DNA of 64,000 nucleotides, taken from assembly GCF_000219535.2 (NCBI RefSeq), contig NZ_CP007806.1:4004501-4068500 (forward strand), in the 5' to 3' direction. Numbering within the stretch: position 1 is the stretch's first letter; every line of letters begins with the position of its first letter. This document shows positions 49,576-63,269 of this stretch, one piece after another. The translations under genes were made by a program, and so were the position numbers. Source of the DNA: Brevibacillus laterosporus LMG 15441. GTDB lineage: Bacteria > Bacillota > Bacilli > Brevibacillales > Brevibacillaceae. The notes beneath the pieces are model-generated. The model did not search any database and was not told the origin of the DNA. It saw only the letters and a program-made list of their open reading frames with translations.

Positions 49576-51240
49576 TTATGGACGATTTACAGCTAATAGC
49601 TCCGTAAGATGATCAAGCATTCGGAGATGGGCATGCGGGGAATATTCCAACCACGGATCAGAAGTAAGCATATGAATTCTGTTCTGCTGAACGGCTGACA
49701 TGGTTTGCCACTGCGGTTCATTTTGGATTTTTTCCCAGATAGCCAATGTTTCGCTTTCCTGACGAATCATCATGAAAAGGCGATCAGCATTCAATGCTTT
49801 CAGCTCCTTTATAGAAATGGGCTTAGTAGCATCTAATGCTTTATTCACACTAACTGGTTTCAATTGCAAATCATCAAACAGCAAGCCTGAGGTCCCACGA
49901 TTATTTTGTATAAACATATTTTGCTGTACTAATCGGATTACAACAACCGATTCCTTCTCCAGCCCAGGCTGCAATCGCTCTTTTACCATTTGAAGTTTCC
50001 GATCGTATTCCTCAAGCCACTTCTCTGCTTGCCAAGACTCTCCCAAAAACTCCGCTAGAAGGCGAAACTGCTGACGCCATTCCATTTGCGACACAGAGAG
50101 ATAGAACACGGGAGCTATTTTTTCTAAGGCCTGCTTTTCTATTTTCGGAAGATTATCATTGGCAATGATGACGTCTGCTGATATCTGCTTAAGCAGCTCT
50201 ATATTTTCCTGCCAGTTCTGGTTTTGACGATACGCGCTGATATGAACAGGGATTTCATTGCGATATTCTCGATAATAATATTCCGTCCACTTGGGATGAA
50301 GTGGAGCAGCAAACGGCATAATATGTAGCGGTAATAAATAGCCTACATGCGCCGGGCTGTATGCCACCAGCTTTCGACGGCGACTTTTCATATAAACATT
50401 AGGTGAAACGCCTATCTCCTTCTTAAACTTACGGCTAAAATAGAATTCATCCGCGTAGCCTACCTGATGAGCGATATCGCGCAGCCTAGCATCTGATTGC
50501 GCCATCAGTCGCTTCGCTTGCTGTATTCGTAGCTTAGCAACATACTCCATCGCGCTTATCCCGTATTTTTTTTTGAACAAATCAACAAAATATTTCGGAC
50601 TGATTTCGGCCACCTGTGCCAGCTTATCGATCGTTAATGAATCGGTATAGTGTTCCTCCATGTATTGCTTTACATATTCGAGTGCTGAATATGCGTTTTC
50701 CGGCTTCGTCCGACAATTCTGATTGATATAGAACAGGATTTCCTGAAAATCGATCTGACAACGAAAACGGCCTGTACGAGCTTTGCTTTGCCAACGACGA
50801 TTCAAATCCTCACACATGGATGCCAATTTATCAGAAGGGTAAACAGAGATTTTCCCCTTATAAGGAAACAACTGTTCATCCTTGCTTATCGTCATACAGC
50901 TTACATGATTGGGCTCGTGCCTAAATACATCGAAATATAACACATAGAGCTCCATCTCCTCACTCAATGCGAGTGTTCCAAAGGTTTGTCCTGGTCTACA
51001 TACGTACACTGAATTTTTATCCAGTTCCCATTGCTGATGATCCAGTACGAGCTGCACTTCTCCACTGGTCATGACAATAAGGGCATAGGAAAAAGCAAGT
51101 TGTTGCTTCAATTGGCAAAGAGCCCCACCCTTCACAGCCTCAATGGATCGAAGTCTGAAGGATAACTCATCAAGCATACATTTATCAGTGCTACGGCATA
51201 TCCTGTTGTCCATCCTATGTACACCACCAATATCCATCAT
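49576..51240 (-). CDS. AraC-type regulator fused to siderophore-binding domain (Btr-like)
   Basis: A 554-residue protein. After an N-terminal cupin-like sensor region (about 30-150), two AraC helix-turn-helix motifs (about 180-280: IDKLAQVAEISPKYFVDLFKKKYG, LRDIAHQVGYADEFYFSRKFKKEIG) precede a TroA/FepB-type binding domain (about 295-554). This is the architecture of B. subtilis Btr, which binds ferric bacillibactin and activates its uptake genes. It precedes the esterase gene. No siderophore ABC transporter is present in the window, so its targets must be elsewhere. The precise start is uncertain because several ATG codons lie within 25 codons. Confidence 0.85.
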   Translation of the reverse strand: MMDIGGVHRMDNRICRSTDKCMLDELSFRLRSIEAVKGGALCQLKQQLAFSYALIVMTSGEVQLVLDHQQWELDKNSVYVCRPGQTFGTLALSEEMELYVLYFDVFRHEPNHVSCMTISKDEQLFPYKGKISVYPSDKLASMCEDLNRRWQSKARTGRFRCQIDFQEILFYINQNCRTKPENAYSALEYVKQYMEEHYTDSLTIDKLAQVAEISPKYFVDLFKKKYGISAMEYVAKLRIQQAKRLMAQSDARLRDIAHQVGYADEFYFSRKFKKEIGVSPNVYMKSRRRKLVAYSPAHVGYLLPLHIMPFAAPLHPKWTEYYYREYRNEIPVHISAYRQNQNWQENIELLKQISADVIIANDNLPKIEKQALEKIAPVFYLSVSQMEWRQQFRLLAEFLGESWQAEKWLEEYDRKLQMVKERLQPGLEKESVVVIRLVQQNMFIQNNRGTSGLLFDDLQLKPVSVNKALDATKPISIKELKALNADRLFMMIRQESETLAIWEKIQNEPQWQTMSAVQQNRIHMLTSDPWLEYSPHAHLRMLDHLTELLAVNRP

Positions 51241-51579: not shown

Positions 51580-52056
51580 TTACAGATCAATATCGAAAAT
51601 CGTGATGCTAGCAAAATCAATCTGGAGCAATGTGTCAGCAGGTATAGGATTTGGTGAGGACAGTACCATCTGAATTTTATCCCCTTTATGAAAGAGTTGG
51701 GGTAATAAAGTGGAGGTTACATAAGTTGTATCGAGATGATTGGCATGAAAGCTTGTTTGAGATGGAATAATCGTGTCCCCATTTTGAAGTAACTCGAATG
51801 TAAGAAGAGAAGTAGGATTTGCTGGGGGAGGAGAAGAAATAGTAGAGATTTGTATGCTAAATTGCGTGAGATAAATTGCAGTCTTGATAATCGTAATGGT
51901 GTCGGTTGTTGGCTCAAATATAATGCCAAATGCATTTGAGGCGCTATTCAAATTGATGACTACAGGCACTATGTTAGCAGGACGAATCACTTGTGGAAGA
52001 AAGTCATTTGTAACATAAGTAATTTTTTCATCTGACCTACATATGTGTCCAGACAT
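51580..52056 (-). CDS. possible spore-surface (exosporium-like) beta-rich protein
   Basis: From the ATG at 52054-52056 (AGGAGG nine bases upstream) it encodes 158 aa, rich in Ile, Thr, Ser and Pro, with few charges and short alternating beta-strands (TTDTITIIKTAIYLTQFSIQ). It starts MSGHICRSDEK with a single early Cys and has no signal peptide. This composition resembles the C-terminal jelly-roll parts of exosporium or spore-coat proteins of Bacillales. The assignment is by general look only; it may be something else. Single gene with its own terminator. Confidence 0.5.
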   Translation of the reverse strand: MSGHICRSDEKITYVTNDFLPQVIRPANIVPVVINLNSASNAFGIIFEPTTDTITIIKTAIYLTQFSIQISTISSPPPANPTSLLTFELLQNGDTIIPSQTSFHANHLDTTYVTSTLLPQLFHKGDKIQMVLSSPNPIPADTLLQIDFASITIFDIDL

Positions 52057-52464
52057 AACATTTACACCTCCTATCAATCCCTCTAGATATTGAATGATAA
52101 ACGGAAATGAATTGTGTTAGGCGAATACCCATTCTTTAAAATGGTTATGTAGGAAGAATACTTGTTATACAGAAGTCAATAAAAAATTACTGATATTCAA
52201 GGAAGTCTTACCTCTTTTGAACAAGAGTATGTAAAAAACAAAGGAAGTATGCAGAATATCCAGAAATTGGGGCATAAATTTTATCAAAAACATAATAATG
52301 AATAACATCCTAGACAACATAGGGAAATGTACAGCATCCAAACGATTGGCTCGTTTTGCACAAAAAAAGTGCCCCTATTCATAGGTGCACCCGAAACATA
52401 TCTGAACAGCTTTTCATGTATTTTACCCGACTCTGCGTTTTTTCAAAGCCTAAAAATCATTCTA
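52057..52464. other. intergenic region with gene remnant and terminator
   Basis: No intact gene. A 40-codon plus-strand open fragment at 52183-52305 looks coding (GSLTSFEQEYVKNKG) and ends at TAA. It has no start and no ribosome site, and may be the tail of a lost gene. The terminator of the six-gene operon lies at 52367-52390. Confidence 0.45.
52367..52390 (-). terminator. terminator of the MoxR/VWA/SWIM operon
   Basis: GTGCACCTAT pairs with ATAGGGGCAC on the minus strand (one bulge) and is followed by seven T. Confidence 0.8.
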
Positions 52465-52752
52465 TTATAGAGAGGTATCTTTGTTAATAAACTCCATATA
52501 CTGACAAAGATAAAAATAGCTTTCTGTTACATCCGCTATATCTGCTCTGCTACTCCGCACATATGCCCTCCCCTGCGCCTCTATTCTCTCTAGCAACTGT
52601 ATCAAAAAGTTCATGTCCAATTGCCTTGCAGCCATGATAAATTGATTTACTTCCTGTATGTCTTGCTCGTTTATTTTCGCTAAACCCTTTAACAAAAGCC
52701 GTTCACTCCACGGATTTATTCGATCAACAAGCTGCTCCAGCGCATTCATCAT
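52465..52752 (-). CDS. small helical protein of unknown function
   Basis: A 95-aa acidic, alpha-helical protein (MMNALEQLVDRINPWSERLL..., LIQLLERIEAQGRAYV). No domain is recognised and there is no signal or membrane segment. It is the last gene of the operon, 11 bp after the SWIM gene, so it is probably a partner of that complex. Confidence 0.75.
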   Translation of the reverse strand: MMNALEQLVDRINPWSERLLLKGLAKINEQDIQEVNQFIMAARQLDMNFLIQLLERIEAQGRAYVRSSRADIADVTESYFYLCQYMEFINKDTSL

Positions 52753-52763
52753 GTATCACGCCC

Positions 52764-54401
52764 CTAAAAATCCAGCTTCAGATTGGTCACTGCCTCGCCT
52801 TTTAAAAAGCTGATTGGATAGATATGCTGTTCATAAACGTGAGCAAATATATAAAAATCACGAAGCTCTAAAAATTTCTTATCCTTCTCTAAAAAAGGAA
52901 TCGTCTTTTCCCATTCCTGGTTATAGGGGATCGTCATCACAAGCTCATTGCCCTTCTGATCATTGACAGTAAAGATAAAATTTTGCGTTCCTTGTTCATA
53001 GGTCGAGCCGTTTACCTTGCTTACTTGTATGATAGCCAATTGCTCCTGTCTGCCCTGAAATAAAGCCATATGCTGATCTCTAGCGTGCCTTTCGTTCCAA
53101 TTATGAATAAGGAAATCCCCCAAATCCACATTCTCAATGGATTCTCTTGATTTTAATGCTAACAGCGTTTCCTCACTTGAAGAGATGCGTTGCTCCCGAT
53201 TTACTTTACATGCTCGTAGCTCAAGCTGAGATCGAGATAAATCATTCATCCTCCACTCTCTTCCCCAAGGAGATCTCTGCCCATACTGTTCTTTAAAGTG
53301 AAATTCGATTCCTTCATAATAAACAGGTCTCGAATCCGTATAGCTATATATCTTTTTATCATCTGTGCAGTAAAAGTAATAGGTAATCCCTTTATAGGAG
53401 GATCGGGTCGCCCACGGATTCGCTCCCAGCGCATATAGTCGCAATCTGGGAATTATGTAATATCTACTTTTAAAACGCCCAATTACCTGTCGTAGTTGCT
53501 CCTGACTTTGTTCTTTTTCTAAGGCAACCGTACGTAAATAGGTACTTGTTAGCTTTTCGAGAAATGCTTTTTGAGAAAAACGGATATGCCGCTGAAAAAA
53601 CAGCGTTACTTGTCCATGGATATTTCTCATATCCTTTTCCAATTGTGCTAACTGCCCATTATGCGCTGCAATGGCTAAAACTTCTAATCTTGCACAAATC
53701 GTCTCAGGTAATTTAGCCAAGCCCAGACTAATGATTTCCGTTATGATCTGCTTGCTATCCTGCACCACGTCCAACGAGTAATTGATTTGTTTATTTGTTT
53801 GATACCACGAATCATCAATCACCTGATGTATTGCTCTATACCTAAGAATCGCTTCTAATCTATGAATACAGCTTTCTTTTTGTTTACAGCTACAAATGCT
53901 CTTCCGTATATCTGCCTCATCCATAAAAGAAACCTCTACGTCCTGCCAGCTCATTTTTATGGTAAGGAACGAACTCTCTCCTATCTCTAGCTCCTCTGCA
54001 TAGGAAATCCGAAACAGAACCTCCTCCACCTGTGCTTCCGTAAACTGATCGTATATTTCACCCAAGGGCTTGGTAAAAAGCCACGAAAAATCGGCAGGCT
54101 TCGCTTCTACCTTCGTCTCATAATTTTGCTTATAGGATAAGAGAGCCATTATGATATGTTTACAGATTTTCTCTGAGGGACAGCTACAGACATGGCTATT
54201 CATATCAGCTTTTACATGACATACAATATCGTCTTCTAGCTTACAGACCACCTGATCAGCTTCAAACGTAAATGCCACCTGTAACCCTTTTTCCATATCC
54301 TTCACGGCACGATTATATAAGCCTTTGTTCGCATGCTTGATCAAAAATTCTTCTGTACAACGCGCTATAAGTTGCTCAAATTGAATTGAAAAATCTGTCA
54401 T
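52764..54401 (-). CDS. SWIM zinc-finger protein (YehQ-like)
   Basis: From the ATG at 54399-54401 (AGAGGTG just upstream), 545 aa. Two SWIM motifs, CxCxnCxH, are visible: VCSCPSEKICKH (about 72) and ICSCKQKESCIH (about 170). SWIM fingers bind DNA, RNA or proteins. The C-terminal two thirds have no recognised domain. Position in the operon and composition match E. coli YehQ, part of the yehL-yehM-yehP-yehQ set. The longer frame upstream has no ribosome site. Confidence 0.83.
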   Translation of the reverse strand: MTDFSIQFEQLIARCTEEFLIKHANKGLYNRAVKDMEKGLQVAFTFEADQVVCKLEDDIVCHVKADMNSHVCSCPSEKICKHIIMALLSYKQNYETKVEAKPADFSWLFTKPLGEIYDQFTEAQVEEVLFRISYAEELEIGESSFLTIKMSWQDVEVSFMDEADIRKSICSCKQKESCIHRLEAILRYRAIHQVIDDSWYQTNKQINYSLDVVQDSKQIITEIISLGLAKLPETICARLEVLAIAAHNGQLAQLEKDMRNIHGQVTLFFQRHIRFSQKAFLEKLTSTYLRTVALEKEQSQEQLRQVIGRFKSRYYIIPRLRLYALGANPWATRSSYKGITYYFYCTDDKKIYSYTDSRPVYYEGIEFHFKEQYGQRSPWGREWRMNDLSRSQLELRACKVNREQRISSSEETLLALKSRESIENVDLGDFLIHNWNERHARDQHMALFQGRQEQLAIIQVSKVNGSTYEQGTQNFIFTVNDQKGNELVMTIPYNQEWEKTIPFLEKDKKFLELRDFYIFAHVYEQHIYPISFLKGEAVTNLKLDF

Positions 54402-54470
54402 ACGCACCTCTTTATTGAAAAATAGCTTCAGCACCGAGGTGAGATTTCTCCCACCTCAGTACGTAGCCTA

Positions 54471-57400
54471 TTATTTTCCTGTAGCTCGCATGATATCGAA
54501 AATCGTTTCACTAAATAAACGCGGTGAAATAGTAGAAATCGGTAAGGGCTGGCACTTTTCATAGTAATAATAACGATCAAATTTATTAGTATAAAAAGCT
54601 AAGCTTTCTAAAGAAATATCATCCATGCCATCATAATAAGAAATACTAGCACCACTGAATTTTAGCTCTACAATCATATCCCCATATTCTTTATAGAACT
54701 CATGGTAGAAGCCTGCATCCTGTGCCATTCCTTTATACCAGCCATACTTCTCTATTGTTTTAGGAAAGGCAGTTGGTGAATATTCTTCTGCTGGCAGATC
54801 GGTAACTCTATTCGTTTTTAGATGTTCTTCGGTTGGAAAGTAAAGCTTTCGATCCAACTGAGGAAATGGCTGCTTCATTTCATAATCCTCAAGCTGTGTT
54901 TGCCATGCTTGCAGATCGTCTTTTGTAAGCTCGATTGGATGCACCAATCCAATAAGCGCATCTTCCTTGCATTCATACTCTTCTTCATCTACCGTATTGA
55001 AAGTACCATCTTCCATGTAACGGAAGGTATCTGTTAGTTTGCCATCCTCATACACACCCCAGATAAGACCAATCGCAAATTTTTGCATCATCACGTTTTC
55101 TACAAAGAGATTTTTCCAAGCTGTTGTGCTCCACAGCCTTTGTTTAGAGAGCGATTCTTCAAGTCGTAAGGATTGAATCGTAACGAGGTTTTTTACATCC
55201 TTCTTCAATTGGGCGAACTCCAATTTAGCTTGCTCAGCTAACGTAGCATCATCCTTTTGTGCAGGTGCAGGTAAATTTTTAACTACCTTTCCCGTTTCAT
55301 CATTGGTTACATGTAATTGACGGTCATTATTTACTTTTACGGTAAACGTTCTCTGTCCGTAGCTAAAAATACGCTTTCCACGTTGATCGAAGCCTAGTGT
55401 CGTAACTAATCGATCCTCTAATTCCTCAGGCGTTATGTTTAAGTTGTGTGCTGCCATGGTTAGGGCTTCTGCCGCCGCTGCCTTCACCTGTCTATTTTTC
55501 ACAGTCCGTTTCATCTGATCAATGGTCACAAACGCCACTATTTCTTGCATAAAGGACAGGGCTTTAACGGCATCTGATGCAAGTGCCCCTCGTCCTGCTT
55601 CCGCCCATACCTTGATCTGTTTGCTTAACTCATCTATGATTCTTCGATCTCCTAAAGAGGTGCATACAAACAAAACCCATTTTTCCTTAGCAGGGGCCTG
55701 ATTAGCCAGCCATAGCGTGTATAATTCCATTGCAAAATCAGCTAATGAATGGGGAGCAGCATAGTCCTTCACCTTTAAAACATGAGGGTTGGGTGCTGTC
55801 GTAAAATCAACAGATTGTGTCAAAATGTATTCTTTTACTTCTGCATCTAGCTCCCTGCCTTCTTTATCTAGCAGTACTGGCAATTGTTCAATCACCAGCC
55901 ATTTCAACCGTGCTAGCTTTCTTTTGTCTACTACGGTTCCAAATGTTGCATGTGCCTTATCTGGACTTTGGTTAGCAGCATCGATTACATTTTGCAGTAA
56001 CGTTTTGAACTTAGCACTCGTCTCATTTGATAGTAGCTCCTGATAAATGCTTTGATAGTCCTCTACTCCGCGCAGGGCGTCTAAGGCCAGCTCTTTTAGC
56101 TTAGCTTTCTTTTCCGTTTGATAGATACGAATATACAGGTCTTTGTTTTTTATATTCGTAAACTCTGCTTGCGCTATGCTGCTTGCTTTTTTAGAAGTAT
56201 CTTGCAGACCTAGCTGAATGGCTTGATAGTAGTAATCTTGGCTTAGCTCATTCTTTTTCTCAAAAATATTTTCTAAAATGGACGTTCTTGCTTCGGCACC
56301 TAATTGGCTATACAATTGTAGACTTTTTTCGATATTCCCTAAAACAATTCTTTGGTAAGAATCCTCTGACAGCTCGCTATAGTAATCAACTGAACCTTTA
56401 TAATTAAGGATATGAAGTAAAAAACGATCAATATTCACCTGTGGATGATCCACATACGCAGCTATCCATTTCTCAGGGTCAAATGCTGATGAGGAGAACA
56501 GCATATGAATAAGGGACATGTTCTCTTGTTGGGTCCCATAATGACTGAGAAAAGCGACAAATCGTTCAATGATCGGATTCTCCACGGGTAGGAACGTGAA
56601 TAAAAATAATTGATCCTTTATATCATAGGAATTAAATTTAGTAGCAGATGAAGCTGGTTGCGTAAATTCATCCAAGATTTCTTGCAGGGACATCTTTTCG
56701 GTAAGGTAGCGATAGAGCTTATGAGTTCTGTTATTTTCCTTGAGAGAAGCAAGCACCATATCATGTAATGTGATATTCTGATTTGACATATCAATCCCAT
56801 GATCCTGAAGTGTCTTGAATATATATCCCTTCATTAACCAATCCGACACAAGTACCATCGCTCTTTTTGCTCTCTCGGTATTCACAAGGAATCTTTTTTC
56901 TACCGTCTGCCACTCCACTCGATAACCACGCATTTCCCTAATTGCGTAGATAATTAATTCATAGGGTTCTGTCAATGGTATAATCCCTTCAAGCATTTCA
57001 TACAGGTCCGCTTCCTGCTCTCGATGCCCGGAAGATAAGGAATTGATTACATCAAGCGGGACAATTTCATAGAGCAAGGTCATTGCACCTAATAGCTTTC
57101 GATCTAGTTCATTTTGTTGCTCTAAGAAATTGGCTTTGCTGCCTCGTACATTTACTCGGTAGAGCAGAGCCGCCGGAACTAGCATTGCATATAGATTAAA
57201 CTCAGAACGGCTGAGTGTTTTCTCTGGTTGAGACTCAGGAATCAGTTGAAGCTGCTTTTGAACAGCCTCTATCTTCTCCTTGTGGATTTGTTTATCCAAA
57301 TAAATAGCAGATACACAATCTTTTTTCGCCAAGGTACTAGAAGCTAATGCTTTGATTGCTGTCGAAATCTCTTGCTGTAATCCCTCTACATTCTCAGTAA

Positions 57401-58022
57401 GCAGGTAGTACATAAAGGGTTGAATTTGCTCCTTCATCTCTTCAAGATAGCTGCTATCAATAAGAGACAGATAATGGAGGGTTAGCAACAGAGGAACAGC
57501 AGATTCTGTGACGGAATATGAGTTTTTTATACTTGATGTATAACTCTTCATGAGCGTGTCGACATAAAAGGAAATCGCTGCATCTCCTATATATTTCTTC
57601 GTATCACACAGTTGGCGGACGACGATCTGTTTTTGTTCCTCTACATCCTTGTTGGTTTGTGACAGCATGATCGTTTTCATAAAATTCTCAATGCAAATAC
57701 GAAGTACATTACTTTTATGGCTTTCATTTGCACTCGTTTTAAAGAGGATAGCTGCTGCTCTAAAGAAGGCTTCGTCTGTCCCGTTTTTCCCCATCTTTTC
57801 TAGGTGAGACATGCAACCGTAGGCATATACTTTTGGATGGACGAGAATACTAGGAAACTTGTCCGACTCACCAGATACATAAGCAATGATCTGATTATAC
57901 TGATTGGAGTCAATGGAATAGCTTTGTGGATTATGTCTGGAGTAATGTCCAGGGTAGTCTTTCACAAATTTATCAGCAAATTGAGTGATTAACGGATTAC
58001 TTCCTACTTTTTTTAAAACCAT
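54471..58022 (-). CDS. DUF4132 protein (MolR/YehI-like)
   Basis: Very large protein of 1183 aa. The N-terminal 900 residues are mostly helical repeats of HEAT-like look. The C-terminus (about 940-1170) is a DUF4132-type domain: RLWSTTAWKNLFVENVMMQKF, LIWGVYEDGKL, TFRYMEDGTFNT, LVHPIELTKDDL, FPQLDRKLY. The family includes E. coli YehI and MolR, which lie next to the yeh MoxR/VWA genes. TAAGGAGGG precedes the ATG. It sits between the VWA and SWIM genes. The biochemical role is unknown; a scaffold or substrate adaptor is plausible. Confidence 0.83.
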   Translation of the reverse strand: MVLKKVGSNPLITQFADKFVKDYPGHYSRHNPQSYSIDSNQYNQIIAYVSGESDKFPSILVHPKVYAYGCMSHLEKMGKNGTDEAFFRAAAILFKTSANESHKSNVLRICIENFMKTIMLSQTNKDVEEQKQIVVRQLCDTKKYIGDAAISFYVDTLMKSYTSSIKNSYSVTESAVPLLLTLHYLSLIDSSYLEEMKEQIQPFMYYLLTENVEGLQQEISTAIKALASSTLAKKDCVSAIYLDKQIHKEKIEAVQKQLQLIPESQPEKTLSRSEFNLYAMLVPAALLYRVNVRGSKANFLEQQNELDRKLLGAMTLLYEIVPLDVINSLSSGHREQEADLYEMLEGIIPLTEPYELIIYAIREMRGYRVEWQTVEKRFLVNTERAKRAMVLVSDWLMKGYIFKTLQDHGIDMSNQNITLHDMVLASLKENNRTHKLYRYLTEKMSLQEILDEFTQPASSATKFNSYDIKDQLFLFTFLPVENPIIERFVAFLSHYGTQQENMSLIHMLFSSSAFDPEKWIAAYVDHPQVNIDRFLLHILNYKGSVDYYSELSEDSYQRIVLGNIEKSLQLYSQLGAEARTSILENIFEKKNELSQDYYYQAIQLGLQDTSKKASSIAQAEFTNIKNKDLYIRIYQTEKKAKLKELALDALRGVEDYQSIYQELLSNETSAKFKTLLQNVIDAANQSPDKAHATFGTVVDKRKLARLKWLVIEQLPVLLDKEGRELDAEVKEYILTQSVDFTTAPNPHVLKVKDYAAPHSLADFAMELYTLWLANQAPAKEKWVLFVCTSLGDRRIIDELSKQIKVWAEAGRGALASDAVKALSFMQEIVAFVTIDQMKRTVKNRQVKAAAAEALTMAAHNLNITPEELEDRLVTTLGFDQRGKRIFSYGQRTFTVKVNNDRQLHVTNDETGKVVKNLPAPAQKDDATLAEQAKLEFAQLKKDVKNLVTIQSLRLEESLSKQRLWSTTAWKNLFVENVMMQKFAIGLIWGVYEDGKLTDTFRYMEDGTFNTVDEEEYECKEDALIGLVHPIELTKDDLQAWQTQLEDYEMKQPFPQLDRKLYFPTEEHLKTNRVTDLPAEEYSPTAFPKTIEKYGWYKGMAQDAGFYHEFYKEYGDMIVELKFSGASISYYDGMDDISLESLAFYTNKFDRYYYYEKCQPLPISTISPRLFSETIFDIMRATGK

Positions 58023-58055
58023 CGAAAACCCTCCTTAATATGCCCTCTAATAAGG

Positions 58056-59198
58056 TTATGAGGTGATAATCTTACCAATCCAACGCGCAAGCTCATCTGG
58101 CGTAATGGCGGCAACATGCGCTCCCATATCGGCCAAGGTGCGTGCGGCATGCTGGTTATATACTCCGTTTCCTTCAAAATCCAATGCAGTCAAAACCAAG
58201 AATCTACAGCCCGTATCAATAATCTCTTTACTTGTACGATACATGTCATTAATAGGGTAGCCTTCCTCCAAATCGCTCACTAAAATAAATATTGTCTTGT
58301 TGGGGTTTTCAAGCAAAGTCTTCCCATATTTCAGCGCCTTTGCGATATGTGTCCCTCCTCCTAACTGAACACTCATCAATAGATCAACAGGGTCTTCTAA
58401 TTGATCTGTCAAATCTACTACCTGTGTATCAAAAATGATGAGGTTTGTTTTAAGAGAAGACAGTTGATGAAAAATGCTTGCCATGACAGAGCTGTATATT
58501 ACCGAGTCCAGCATACTCCCACTCTCATCTACAGCTATAATAATGTTCCATTTATTTTGTTGCTGGGTATTGCTATGAAAATATACTTCATCTAAAAATA
58601 GTCGTTTTTTTTGTTTATCGTAATTCTTCAGATTTTTTCTGATTGTTCTCTTATAATCCAGATTTTTAATTGACTTTATGTATCCCCTGCGATGATAATT
58701 ACGCTTGCCCACAACACTCGCTTTTATTTGAAATTCCAGTGTTTTTTTTAATTCCTCTACCACTCTTCGCACCATGTCCTTGGCGGTTTTGACCACTTCG
58801 CCCTTCATATATCCTTTAAATTGAAGAATATTTTTTAGCAATGTCATATTAGGCTCAAGCTTTTCAAGCACTTTTTTGTCCGTGAGTAGCTCGGTCATGT
58901 TGTACTTTTCAATCGCTTGCTTTTCAAGAATCTCAACCGTTTTCTTCGGAAAAATGGTCCGGATTTTACGTATCCAGGTAGGAACAGTAAGCTGGGAGCC
59001 TCCCTGTCCGCCTTTTACGCGATACCCTTGCTCTTCTTTATACTCTCGATTGTAGAGGTAGCCCAGGATGTCATCTATTTCAGAGTAGGTAAAATCGGCC
59101 TCTTTATATCCATCAATACGGTTTAATGATTCTTTGGAATTCTCACCCAATAATAACCTCCAGCGATTGAGATTCTCTTTGTTTATATGAGGTTCCAT
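58056..59198 (-). CDS. von Willebrand factor A domain protein (YehP-like)
   Basis: A 380-aa cytosolic protein. The N-terminal 200 residues are basic and helical. A VWA domain follows with a complete metal-ion-dependent adhesion site: DESGS (224-228), Thr in GGGTHIAKAL (about 283) and Asp in LVSDLEEGYP (about 309). VWA proteins partner with MoxR AAA+ ATPases, as in magnesium chelatase and nitric oxide reductase activation. The start overlaps the DUF5682 stop by 16 nt; AAGGAG lies eight bases ahead. Confidence 0.9.
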   Translation of the reverse strand: MEPHINKENLNRWRLLLGENSKESLNRIDGYKEADFTYSEIDDILGYLYNREYKEEQGYRVKGGQGGSQLTVPTWIRKIRTIFPKKTVEILEKQAIEKYNMTELLTDKKVLEKLEPNMTLLKNILQFKGYMKGEVVKTAKDMVRRVVEELKKTLEFQIKASVVGKRNYHRRGYIKSIKNLDYKRTIRKNLKNYDKQKKRLFLDEVYFHSNTQQQNKWNIIIAVDESGSMLDSVIYSSVMASIFHQLSSLKTNLIIFDTQVVDLTDQLEDPVDLLMSVQLGGGTHIAKALKYGKTLLENPNKTIFILVSDLEEGYPINDMYRTSKEIIDTGCRFLVLTALDFEGNGVYNQHAARTLADMGAHVAAITPDELARWIGKIITS

Positions 59199-61564
59199 TT
59201 TGCAAACTCCTTCTCAATAGCCTGATCCATCTTCCTCGCCTGTTGCAGTAGTCGTTCCTCAATGACTGGAGCTTGCACATCCTCCGCGGTAGTTTGGAAT
59301 ATAGCGGCCACTTTCTCTGAAATAAGCATGATCTCCATAGGTGTAAAATAAGTAAAGGCTAAACGCAGCTCTGGTGCGATCTGCAAAAACTCCTCATAGG
59401 ACAGCTTGCCAATTAGATTGTTCAAATCCTCTAGCAACTGTTTATCGTGTAAAAGCACATCACTAGCTATTGTAAATACCCCTTGTAAATACGCTGCAGT
59501 ATGCAACATGTTTTCAGGAGTACCAAGCATGTACGCCCTTGCTTTTAACGCGATTTCCTCTCGATCCAATACGTCTAGATTGCATAAAATAGCGATGATA
59601 ACGCCTTTAAGCCGAGGTAAAATATCATTGACGGCAAGGAGGCTAGCAAGTTGATCTCTAAAAATATCAACGGAAAGCCCCCAGCTCTCCTTGGAGGAAA
59701 GCATGTAAAGAAATTTCAGGTATTCTACGATGTGGTTTATTTCATCTGGGTTAGGCTTTGTGATCTCATAGATTTTTGTTACTGCATGGTAATAGGTTTC
59801 CTCTATGAGTTTTTGCAATCGGTCCGTTTCCTTCAGCGCAAATAAGCGTTTTTGTTCCGAAAGAACTGTAAGTGTTTGAAGAGTTTGACACAATGAGACA
59901 AAGCTTCCATCTTTCTTGACAAACTGTTCAACCAGATCGAAAAGCTTGCTGCTCAATTCCTCTAGTCCCATGAGCATTGACTTCAAAAGCCATTTAGCTG
60001 CCACTCTGCTATGATGATCCGGAAGCTCCTTCATACACTCCTCGATTTTATGAATCGCCGCTTCTCGAACGCTTCCTCCGTGAATCGAATTTTCGATGAG
60101 CCTCGCTTCTATGTAGGAGGAATAGCTGTAGGCCCAGGTTTCTCTTCCTAAATTAATATTGCGATTTTCGAGCCAATCAGGCCCCGTGATTTTTTGACAG
60201 AACTCTGGTACTAAAAACTGTAGACAGTGAAAAAAGTAACTAGTCTCTCGATGCAGCGGTTTAGCATACAGGTCTACTGTTTTCTTATTTTTACTGGTTG
60301 TATGTAGCTTTACCTTATATGTTTTGCCTCTTTCTTTAAAATCGCGTACAATCGGCACATCTAAATCATTCTTGGCAATTTTCCCAATTTTATCGCCCGT
60401 GAGTAGCTCTCGTAATGTATCTAAGGGCCGTGATGTGGCAAGTGAGAACTCGCCTTTTACAAATGCAGAGGTAACAGCATCAAGTAGCTCGTAGGCCCCG
60501 CCCTCCGATTTGGAACGAAAACTAGTAAGCCCCTGTACTAAATGATAGGCTTCAATAGCGTCTGAAACTGACGCCGTTTCTCCTTTTTCTCGCAAGCTCT
60601 TTATTAATTGGGCCAAGAACAGAACCGCACTTTTGTTATAAGGCTGGGCCCGCTTCTTCTGAATTGCCCTCCAGACCGTGTCATAGTAATTCACATAGGG
60701 CATTCCGCTTGCATACCCATTTACGTGATCCGCTTCACGGAAGGTATATACCATCGGATATACTTTTTCATTTTTTACTTGTTTGATTTTATAGATTGCA
60801 TCTCTATCCTCTAGTAATCCATAGGTATGGAATCCTCCTGTAACGACAAGGATTCTCGCATATTCTTTTTGTGCTTTTACAATATTGTTCTTCATATGTG
60901 CTTCACGGATGAGGTGCCCTTCTGTCTCTAGCATCTCTTCCTCATAGCACATTCTGGAGAAATAACAGTATGTATATACTTCCTTCACGAAATCCTTAGT
61001 AGATTTCTTGAGTCCTTCCACTTCAAAAACCTTTTCCCAAAGCTCATTAAAATGCCGACAGTTCAGTTTTTGGCAAAGTTGTTTAATAAAAATTGAACTG
61101 GCAAGCAAAGTTTCGTCATGATAAGAGATTTTTCGGGATTCTTGCTCATCATCATGCCCATGTTCTTTACTTTCTTGCTGACTTCCGTAGCTTATATCAA
61201 TGAATTGGGCGGGAATTCCTCTTCGTTTCGCTTCCTTTAAAGCTACATATTCAGGTGAATAATCTAGCAGGGGAAAATAGCAGGCATAGCTATGCTCTTC
61301 TTTCCTGTAGGCATAATAGATACTGACGGGTGGCGTTGTATCCTCATGTGTCAGTATTTCAATCATATGATTGCTATTCTCCGGCCCTTCCAACAGTATA
61401 ATTTCTGGTTTATAGGCCTCAATCGTTTTTTTAAGGTGAAAAGAACAAGCAGGGCTGTGATGACGAATCGGGAAATAGACAACCTGATTGGCAAGATTAT
61501 AAATTTTTTTCTCACATAGCTCGGTTATCTGATCCATTTCTTCTGATTGTAAAAATCTCCCCAT
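59183..61564 (-). CDS. DUF5682 protein (YehM-like)
   Basis: A 793-aa protein. The N-terminal half has the family marks FPIRHHSPAC (31-40), ILLEGPEN (about 56-63), FIDISYG and VVTGGFHTYGL (about 241-250), resembling in pattern the His/Glu motifs of EreA/TraB-type hydrolase folds, so it may be an enzyme. The C-terminal half is helical. AAGGAAG precedes the first ATG at 61562-61564, supporting that start and a 40-nt overlap with the MoxR gene. It corresponds to E. coli YehM. Confidence 0.83.
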   Translation of the reverse strand: MGRFLQSEEMDQITELCEKKIYNLANQVVYFPIRHHSPACSFHLKKTIEAYKPEIILLEGPENSNHMIEILTHEDTTPPVSIYYAYRKEEHSYACYFPLLDYSPEYVALKEAKRRGIPAQFIDISYGSQQESKEHGHDDEQESRKISYHDETLLASSIFIKQLCQKLNCRHFNELWEKVFEVEGLKKSTKDFVKEVYTYCYFSRMCYEEEMLETEGHLIREAHMKNNIVKAQKEYARILVVTGGFHTYGLLEDRDAIYKIKQVKNEKVYPMVYTFREADHVNGYASGMPYVNYYDTVWRAIQKKRAQPYNKSAVLFLAQLIKSLREKGETASVSDAIEAYHLVQGLTSFRSKSEGGAYELLDAVTSAFVKGEFSLATSRPLDTLRELLTGDKIGKIAKNDLDVPIVRDFKERGKTYKVKLHTTSKNKKTVDLYAKPLHRETSYFFHCLQFLVPEFCQKITGPDWLENRNINLGRETWAYSYSSYIEARLIENSIHGGSVREAAIHKIEECMKELPDHHSRVAAKWLLKSMLMGLEELSSKLFDLVEQFVKKDGSFVSLCQTLQTLTVLSEQKRLFALKETDRLQKLIEETYYHAVTKIYEITKPNPDEINHIVEYLKFLYMLSSKESWGLSVDIFRDQLASLLAVNDILPRLKGVIIAILCNLDVLDREEIALKARAYMLGTPENMLHTAAYLQGVFTIASDVLLHDKQLLEDLNNLIGKLSYEEFLQIAPELRLAFTYFTPMEIMLISEKVAAIFQTTAEDVQAPVIEERLLQQARKMDQAIEKEFAKWNLI

Positions 61565-62634
61565 AAGCCCTCTTCCTTTGCCCGTTGTTTCACAACCTTT
61601 GAAAAATAGGTTTGCAGAATATGAATATCCTTATGATTCTCCTTCGCTACAGCACCCAGCATATTTTGAACCAATCGTTCTAAAGTAATAGGCTTATGAT
61701 CATAAAAATAAGAGGTCATCGCACTCTGAACATAGACCGAAACAGCTTCAGCAGTACTCATGACGGCTTGTGGACTATCAATTTTATAGCCTTCCAGCGT
61801 TTCTCCTGTTCGCAATTCTAAAAACGTGGTGGCGAGAACTTCTACAATGGAAGAGTCAACAGCAATATCAATCCCACTTTGTTGCAGCATGTTCCTAGAT
61901 TGGGATTCAATGATTTGCGCCTCCATTTTCACATGGTTGATAGGGAAAATCGTTTCAAAATTAAATCTACGTTTTAAGGCACTGCTCATTTCATTTACGC
62001 CTTTATCACGGATGTTTGCCGTCGCAATGATATTAAAGCCTGGTTTTGCAAACAAAATCCCATCTTCAATTTCAGGTATGTTCATCACCTTGTCGCTTAA
62101 AATGCTAATTAATACATCCTGGACTTCAAACGGGCATCGTGTAATCTCTTCAAAACGGGTAATGATGCCTTTTTTCATCCCTGTATATAAAGGAGAAGGA
62201 ACTAAAGCCTCAAAACTAGGACCTTTATCTAATAGCATGGCATAATTCCAGGAATACTTAATCATGTCCTCCGTCGTCCCAGCAGTACCTTGAATCGTAT
62301 TGGTACTTATTCCTGATATCGCCGCTGATAATAGTTCACTTAGCATTGTTTTTGCCGTCCCTGGTTCACCCACTAGCATTAGCCCTCGATTACCAGCTAA
62401 TGAGACAATGGCTCTTTCAATTAGCACGTCATCGCCGTAAAATTTCTTCGTGATGGTGATTTCTTCCTCACCTAGCTTTAGCGGAGCCTCTGCACCCAGA
62501 ATAAAATCTCTGACAGATTTCGGGGACAATAGCCAATTTGGAGGTTTAGAACCTTTGTCATTAGCTACTAGGGCTTTTAGCTCGGTTTCATACAACGTTT
62601 CCATCGTGGGCTTCATGGTCATCATAGGCTCCAT
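61525..62634 (-). CDS. MoxR-family AAA+ ATPase (YehL-like)
   Basis: AAA+ ATPase of 369 aa. Walker A is GEPGTAKT (89-96). The Walker B region reads ITRFEEITR (159-167), with Glu in place of the usual Asp before the catalytic Glu. Sensor 1 is IIATANIRD (about 202-210), and SSALKRRF carries the arginine finger. This divergence fits the YehL subgroup of MoxR proteins. It is the first gene of the operon; GAAAGGA precedes the ATG. MoxR-VWA pairs act as chaperones remodelling partner proteins; the client here is unknown. Confidence 0.9.
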   Translation of the reverse strand: MEPMMTMKPTMETLYETELKALVANDKGSKPPNWLLSPKSVRDFILGAEAPLKLGEEEITITKKFYGDDVLIERAIVSLAGNRGLMLVGEPGTAKTMLSELLSAAISGISTNTIQGTAGTTEDMIKYSWNYAMLLDKGPSFEALVPSPLYTGMKKGIITRFEEITRCPFEVQDVLISILSDKVMNIPEIEDGILFAKPGFNIIATANIRDKGVNEMSSALKRRFNFETIFPINHVKMEAQIIESQSRNMLQQSGIDIAVDSSIVEVLATTFLELRTGETLEGYKIDSPQAVMSTAEAVSVYVQSAMTSYFYDHKPITLERLVQNMLGAVAKENHKDIHILQTYFSKVVKQRAKEEGLWGDFYNQKKWIR

Positions 62635-62736: not shown

Positions 62737-62909
62737 GGGCAGAAAGTCTCAATGTAGGGTATACGGGCATTAACAGCAATATTATTGGGTAAAAATTGGG
62801 ATTGTTGGATGAAATTTTGACATAACTTTCTGGTTTTACGTTTTTTTATGCATGGCACTACAGTGACTTGTCGTAGAATCTCAGATTTTTTTTTGCTATA
62901 ACAACATAA

Positions 62910-62937
62910 AAAGACGCTAGAAGCGCCTTTTTATAAA
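62910..62937 (-). terminator. terminator after small secreted protein gene
   Basis: GGCGCTTCTAGCGTC on the minus strand folds into a six-position stem (one mismatch) followed by TTTTTATG, about 40 bp after the stop. Confidence 0.65.
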
Positions 62938-62972: not shown

Positions 62973-63269
62973 TTATTCATCAACTTTTTTATACGTAACT
63001 AGCCAATTATCACCCTCATCTTCGACCTTCTCTAAAACATACTTAGTAAGGGCATAACAACCTCCGCTCATTTTTTCAGTCGGAATACTTTCAATAGTAG
63101 GGAAATCTTCTTTTGGTAGTATCCCTTGTAAATAATCACTTGCGGGAGCAATAGAGTACTTACTGTGATCTATTGAGATAGGTGCAGCACTAACTACGGA
63201 CCCTACTGACAGAACAGCAAAACTCAACATTCCAACAGCCATAACTCTTCTCATTTGGTTTTTAAACAC
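62973..63269 (-). CDS. small secreted protein, unknown
   Basis: A 98-aa protein starting at GTG 63267-63269, chosen because GGGAGG lies nearby at eight bases. A Sec signal (MRRVMAVGMLSFAVLSVGSV then VVSAA) leaves a mature part of about 68 aa with one Cys (SGGCYALTKYV). No known family. The mature protein is acidic and small enough to be a bacteriocin-like or regulatory peptide, but nothing specific supports that. Own terminator downstream. Confidence 0.65.
   Translation of the reverse strand: MFKNQMRRVMAVGMLSFAVLSVGSVVSAAPISIDHSKYSIAPASDYLQGILPKEDFPTIESIPTEKMSGGCYALTKYVLEKVEDEGDNWLVTYKKVDE

Follow-up and report, generated by a model that had tools for sequence, protein, structure and literature searches.

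A conserved MoxR, DUF5682, VWA, DUF4132 and SWIM operon of Brevibacillus laterosporus, counterpart of the Escherichia coli yeh genes, as a candidate ATP-driven machine

Pairs formed by a MoxR-type AAA+ ATPase and a VWA protein are remodelling chaperones (PMC7159879), and in NorQ/NorD the VWA domain inserts a finger into the pore of MoxR, ATPase activity remodelling a linker that is required for metal insertion (PMC13036017). The present work concerns a stretch of 64,000 nucleotides (nt) from Brevibacillus laterosporus LMG 15441 (contig NZ_CP007806.1, positions 4,004,501 to 4,068,500), hereafter the window, in which such a pair is encoded on the minus strand at 52465-62634 together with a DUF5682 protein, a DUF4132 protein, a SWIM zinc-finger protein and a small sixth product. 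The ATPase is of the YehL type, a recognised MoxR subfamily; a literature search returned no client for this subfamily and no paper naming DUF5682, and DUF4132 is mentioned in papers only incidentally.

Several described systems share parts of this set. RavA-ViaA of E. coli also consists of a MoxR ATPase and a VWA partner, but its operon is without DUF5682, SWIM and DUF4132. NorQ-NorD and CoxD-CoxE have in common with the window operon MoxR and a VWA protein of the CoxE-type family and supply the precedent for metal insertion, but their client is a known metalloenzyme and they are not described with DUF5682, SWIM or DUF4132. The MoxR-vWA-VMAP ternary conflict systems (Kaur et al. 2020, PMC7159879) share MoxR, VWA and the presence of a third component; the bpMoxR profile scores the window MoxR at 20.6 bits, below its 27-bit cut-off, a Pfam scan of the window operon found neither VMAP nor the effector domains of ternary systems, and the main text of that paper makes no mention of SWIM, DUF5682, DUF4132 or YehL. 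The counterpart is instead the uncharacterised yehI-yehL-yehM-yehP-yehQ set of E. coli K-12, which comprises the same five families and to which system the window copy belongs. What is added here is the assignment of the sixth gene, a Tiki-like reading of DUF5682, a second system type and quantified co-occurrence.

The six genes of the window, in order from the 5' end of the operon, are as follows (lengths in amino acids, aa).

61525..62634, minus strand: MoxR-type AAA+ ATPase, YehL subfamily (369 aa; Pfam AAA_5, 6e-34)
59183..61564, minus strand: DUF5682 protein, YehM orthologue (793 aa; Pfam, 1.4e-88)
58056..59198, minus strand: VWA_CoxE protein, YehP orthologue (380 aa; Pfam, 4e-45)
54471..58022, minus strand: DUF4132 protein, YehI orthologue (1183 aa; Pfam, 5e-49 at aa 911-1095)
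52764..54434, minus strand: SWIM zinc-finger protein, YehQ orthologue (556 aa, GTG start; Pfam SWIM, 3.9e-5)
52465..52752, minus strand: gene 6, a helical repeat, gene split (95 aa; profile match to SWIM proteins)

An earlier note on this DNA had described six tightly packed genes here, with overlaps of 40 and 16 nt and gaps of 11-70 nt, and the open reading frames (ORFs) bear out both their positions and their spacing. MoxR and DUF5682 overlap by 40 nt and DUF5682 and VWA by 16 nt; the gaps are 33 nt between VWA and DUF4132, 11 nt between SWIM and gene 6 and, between DUF4132 and SWIM, 36 nt if counted from the GTG start, or about 70 nt if the next ATG (54401), a possible alternative start, is used. 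The AAA_5, DUF5682, VWA_CoxE, DUF4132 and SWIM matches all pass the curated Pfam cut-offs.

Pairwise comparison with E. coli gave 48% identity over 361 aa for MoxR and YehL, 40% for VWA and YehP, 31% over the C-terminal 400 aa for DUF4132 and YehI, 23% over the full length for DUF5682 and YehM, and 21% (E 5e-10) for the SWIM protein and YehQ. Similarity to the other E. coli pair was weak and local (MoxR to RavA, 11/47 residues, E 0.011; VWA to ViaA, E 0.003), and in a MoxR tree RavA falls far outside. Because of these five matches, as against the weak RavA/ViaA similarity, the window locus is, on its sequences, the orthologue of the yehI/yehLMPQ system and not, as the earlier note had it, just a relative. 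The order of MoxR, DUF5682 and VWA is shared with the E. coli locus yehI-yehK-yehL-yehM-yehP-yehQ (b2118-b2122), where five of the six window proteins have orthologues, but the position of the DUF4132 gene differs: it is upstream in E. coli, whereas in the window it separates VWA from SWIM. YehK does not match the product of window gene 6, which is a separate ORF, and was for want of similarity rejected as its orthologue. Near the E. coli locus stand yehF, which carries a WGR domain, and yehH.

The yehLMPQ segment is present, usually as a single copy, in 5305 of 5426 complete E. coli genomes (97.8%), and the yeh cluster is among the genes deleted in the reduced strain DGF-298 (PMC10652928); the cluster is therefore near-core but dispensable. 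E. coli YehL (L004:12597-13685) is grouped by the MoxR tree with Actinomycetota and Myxococcota, apart from other Gammaproteobacteria, tentatively suggesting, on a long branch, a transfer.

The search for co-occurrence that the earlier note had proposed was run with each family in turn on one set of 200 Bacilli genomes. YehL-type MoxR was found in 22 and DUF5682 in the same 22 (matches above cut-off); VWA was present in 21 of these and SWIM in 18, and DUF4132 in the 18 SWIM-positive genomes plus seven others. All five families occur in 18 of the 200 genomes, each time at a single locus of about 10 kb, with Fisher p values for family co-occurrence of 1e-16 to 1e-29 (about 1e-29 for MoxR and DUF5682, 22/22). 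As to the remaining MoxR-positive genomes, three (G092, G199 and G209) have a diverged form, and one (G019) is decayed: at L122:7833-10339 its MoxR is frameshifted and its DUF5682 reduced to a stub, beside an IS30-like transposase, the other module genes being gone.

Beyond the Bacilli, a genome-wide scan anchored on MoxR, with flanks fetched, returned loci from Bacillota, Pseudomonadota, Actinomycetota, Planctomycetota, Verrucomicrobiota, Spirochaetota, Bacteroidota, Myxococcota and others. MoxR, DUF5682, VWA and SWIM stand together in 63 of the 67 loci with enough downstream sequence, and DUF4132 also in 51 of 54 long loci, each set covering several phyla; the DUF4132 gene varies in position and may lie upstream or downstream, and in Paenibacillaceae it is found between those for VWA and SWIM. 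With start codons called mechanically, MoxR and DUF5682 share exactly 40 nt in 41 loci, and 16 loci have a 25-nt overlap of VWA and SWIM. Compared pairwise, the five proteins diverge in step with one another (Mantel r 0.89-0.96), MoxR being the most conserved (median identity 58%) and SWIM and DUF4132 the least (21% and 24%). Since co-occurrence, conserved order and overlaps, and correlated divergence all concur, the linkage is not by chance, and the proposal that the operon is one functional unit, found in many bacterial phyla, is supported. No constant neighbour gene pointing to a pathway was seen across the related loci. A search for plasmid carriage gave 40 records, many as large as a chromosome or a megaplasmid.

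Some Bacilli (L120, L121) carry a second type, absent from the earlier note, in the order SWIM-HEAT-MoxR-DUF5682-VWA. It has the same five-part logic as the window, with a MoxR about 45% identical, but its HEAT protein is without the DUF4132 domain, gene 6 is missing and the gene order differs. The core common to both types is therefore made up of MoxR, DUF5682 and VWA together with one SWIM and one HEAT protein.

The motifs described in the earlier note are intact. MoxR has the Walker A sequence GEPGTAKT (aa 89-96) and the other AAA+ motifs, its nearest solved relatives being midasin. The VWA protein has a complete MIDAS (DxSxS...T...D: D224, S226, S228, D257/T258, T283, D309), whose residues are invariant in 40/40 relatives with the exception of T258 (38/40; Ser in two). 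Family membership supports the suggested roles of motor and adaptor for these two proteins. Compared by sequence with solved structures, VWA, SWIM and DUF5682 gave no meaningful match.

The AlphaFold model of the DUF5682 protein (pLDDT 89.6) shows an N-terminal alpha/beta domain followed by a mainly helical C-terminal half.

60749..61483, minus strand: N-terminal alpha/beta domain of DUF5682, Tiki/TraB/ChaN-like (about aa 28-272; profile match, invariant residues, AlphaFold)

Thirteen positions in the protein (R34, H35, H36, S37, P38, C40, E59, D123, R220, E221, M224, G243 and H246) are kept in 54/54 aligned members and include the Tiki signature RxxxM...GxxH together with the N-terminal His and Glu. 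Weak Pfam matches recur among the 54 members, to ChaN/Tiki in 14, to TraB/PrgY/GumN in five and to DUF5694, which we take to be Tiki-related, in four; the ChaN and TraB matches (best E 0.012 for ChaN, 0.027 for TraB) do not reach the curated cut-off and, in a scan of one protein by itself, are not significant. Compared by hhalign with a TraB/GumN alignment built within this analysis, the DUF5682 profile gave 86.8% probability (P 4e-6) over a span containing RxxxM...VVxGxxH, where five controls with shuffled columns gave 0.1%; the single sequence of YbaP did not match it. The N-terminus looks like a Tiki domain, a reading new with respect to the earlier note, and is likely a member of the Tiki/TraB/ChaN hydrolase superfamily.

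For the DUF4132 protein, the role of scaffold proposed in the earlier note is supported by a predicted HEAT superhelix: the AlphaFold model (pLDDT 89.5) is a long superhelix with a C-terminal mixed domain, its best Foldseek matches are Pds5B, CAND1 and importins, and profile matches to HEAT/alphaRep are in line with a HEAT scaffold.

55410..57995, minus strand: HEAT-type helical superhelix of the DUF4132 protein (about aa 10-871; AlphaFold, Foldseek, profile matches)
54738..55292, minus strand: DUF4132 domain (aa 911-1095; Pfam)

A Pfam scan found no WGR domain in the window protein; in some relatives (L112, L119, L102) WGR is fused to DUF4132. At several loci (L095-L098) MoxR is preceded by two or three DUF4132 genes in tandem, which hints at diversification of this component. 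A second kind of DUF4132 protein, of about 1650 aa, exists in Bacilli without MoxR and adjoined by a small gene of some 138 aa (L127:11256-16661, L128:9218-14740); the large protein of L127 has the architecture DUF5724-DUF4132-DUF7737, and the small gene of that locus gave no Pfam match.

The SWIM protein has two CxC...CxH fingers, of unequal conservation.

54156..54188, minus strand: first SWIM finger, CSCPSEKICKH (aa 83-93; C-x-C...C-x-H kept in 57/58 relatives)
53862..53894, minus strand: second SWIM finger, CSCKQKESCIH (aa 181-191; each ligand kept in about 32/58 relatives)

Gene 6, for which Pfam gives no match, had been counted as a sixth family, and this has to be corrected. Its profile matches stand-alone ORFs of about 95-150 aa located 3' of the SWIM gene in Bacillota and also residues ~610-700 of SWIM proteins of 700-820 aa (E down to 2e-26), these longer proteins coming from relatives without a separate gene 6; conversely, the middle region of the SWIM profile, positions ~203-291, matches gene 6. 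Gene 6 therefore represents one helical repeat from the SWIM protein which now stands as its own gene, or which other lineages have fused.

These elements, their constant linkage, correlated divergence and conserved residues can be read directly from the genomes. That together they specify a single ATP-driven machine for remodelling proteins, one with a hydrolase-like subunit built in, is very likely. As to how it works, the reading we prefer, at a probability of roughly 40%, is that of one multi-protein machine in which an ATP-driven MoxR/VWA pair remodels or metallates DUF5682 and the HEAT and SWIM parts provide targeting. A MoxR hexamer would act as motor and couple to the MIDAS protein, by analogy with NorQ/NorD, the two spending ATP to remodel, activate, metallate or gate a client from the same operon. 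The best candidate for this client would be DUF5682, hydrolase-like in the manner of the Tiki superfamily, with an invariant centre of His, Glu and Arg; it is preferred because it is the sole enzyme-like protein always linked to the MoxR/VWA pair and because its gene directly follows MoxR, usually with the 40-nt overlap. The DUF4132 HEAT scaffold and the SWIM protein, with gene 6, may hold or select the target. The outcome would be an ATP-gated targeted hydrolase or a cofactor-maturation complex, serving cell maintenance and not phage defence. In favour of this, the MoxR/DUF5682/VWA trio persists in the second type and the module has decayed together in G019.

Several considerations weigh on the other side. 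Assembly into a complex, the direction of action, hydrolysis and the activities of the products are predictions. The Tiki assignment rests on the motifs and on a short TraB match, of about 47 columns; an alignment of erythromycin esterase (EreA) gave no match to the DUF5682 profile and did not bear the assignment out; and a Foldseek search of the PDB with the full DUF5682 model, in which the helical half dominates, returned helical-repeat noise with no E below 0.001. The Mantel correlations partly express shared organismal phylogeny, the 80-locus set was ranked by similarity to the window so that distant types are under-sampled, and E. coli manages without the yeh genes, as their absence from DGF-298 shows. 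A fuller version, in which a pan-bacterial AAA+ machine has DUF5682 as a built-in Tiki metal-dependent hydrolase, controlled by the MoxR/VWA motor and steered by the HEAT scaffold and SWIM adaptor, is offered as speculation and in all its parts is rather unlikely. Were it true, it would define a class of ATP-gated hydrolase apart from Clp, Lon and FtsH and carried by almost every E. coli strain; a MoxR/VWA motor driving a Tiki-type hydrolase would amount to an ATP-controlled enzyme of a new kind, spread across many phyla. In any case the constant partners narrow the search for the YehL client to a short list within the operon, candidate catalytic residues of DUF5682 can now be named, and E. 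coli K-12, which carries the genes but can do without them, is a convenient test organism.

The MoxR/VWA pair might instead be a general chaperone for a client encoded elsewhere, such as a respiratory or envelope complex as for RavA-ViaA, DUF5682, DUF4132 and SWIM then serving as adaptors or scaffold without enzymatic activity. RavA-ViaA and the CoxDE type are precedents (PMC3893208; PMC7159879), and the loci have no constant neighbour gene that might be the client, but the five families are locked together, which suggests clients within the operon, and DUF5682 carries enzyme-like invariant residues; we consider this alternative rather unlikely. Mere chance or a loose neighbourhood, the circumstance under which the earlier note would have been mistaken, found nothing in its favour: genome comparison, through co-occurrence, correlated divergence and conserved loci, rules it out for all practical purposes.

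Resemblance in form to the ternary systems (PMC7159879) also invites the reading of a conflict system, anti-phage or inter-bacterial, where SWIM and DUF4132, as variable parts for recognition, sense invasion and the motor releases DUF5682 as effector. The patchy presence in Bacilli (18/200), the fast divergence of SWIM and DUF4132 (median 21% and 24% against 58% for MoxR), the multiple DUF4132 copies and some possible phylum-crossing transfers in the MoxR tree would all suit it; yet PADLOC gave a single weak match (PD-Lambda-5_A, E 0.0025), the neighbours are ordinary with no recurrent defence gene, IMG/VR holds no viral copy and the phage records a single unannotated 14-kb contig, the effector domains typical of ternary systems are absent, and presence in 97.8% of E. 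coli genomes, usually in one place each, is unlike a typical defence island. Phage conflict, which the earlier note had entertained, gains no support from PADLOC, neighbours, IMG/VR or E. coli distribution, and we regard this reading as improbable. Still less probable is a DNA-damage or nucleoid machine, WGR and SWIM binding nucleic acids and MoxR/VWA remodelling a DNA-bound complex. It draws on the WGR fusions to DUF4132 in several relatives, on yehF beside the E. coli locus and on Deinococcus, where WGR-containing and DUF4132-containing proteins rise upon DdrO depletion (PMC8533742); against this, the window DUF4132 protein is without WGR, the Deinococcus genes are only putative members of the module and the nucleic-acid role of the SWIM finger is itself putative.

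The boundaries of the operon are marked by two hairpins.

52360..52392, minus strand: probable weak intrinsic terminator 3' of gene 6 (hairpin -11.1 kcal/mol, z -1.5, then U7)
62905..62935, minus strand: hairpin/terminator of the upstream gene, taken as the operon 5' boundary (terminator scan)

The single end terminator of the earlier note stands in so far as an imperfect hairpin (52392-52367) followed by seven U is present, yet it is weak and was not picked up by a consensus terminator scan. The window MoxR groups beside Brevibacillus in the tree, and Paenibacillaceae relatives share the full gene order MoxR-DUF5682-VWA-DUF4132-SWIM-gene 6. A flank search found the downstream flank in two genomes of the same genus (G002 and G004); in a third that lacks the module (G001) it found no flank match, hence no empty site could be read.

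Among the neighbours, 49576-51240 encodes an AraC-type regulator fused to a periplasmic-binding domain and resembling the bacillibactin regulator Btr, and 51580-52077 a short protein that weakly matches the BclA C-terminal domain and a Gly-X-X repeat family (exosporium-type surface proteins). Directly upstream of the operon, 62973-63269 encodes a small protein whose N-terminus resembles a signal peptide and for which Pfam gives no match; it is also found upstream of the operon in G002.

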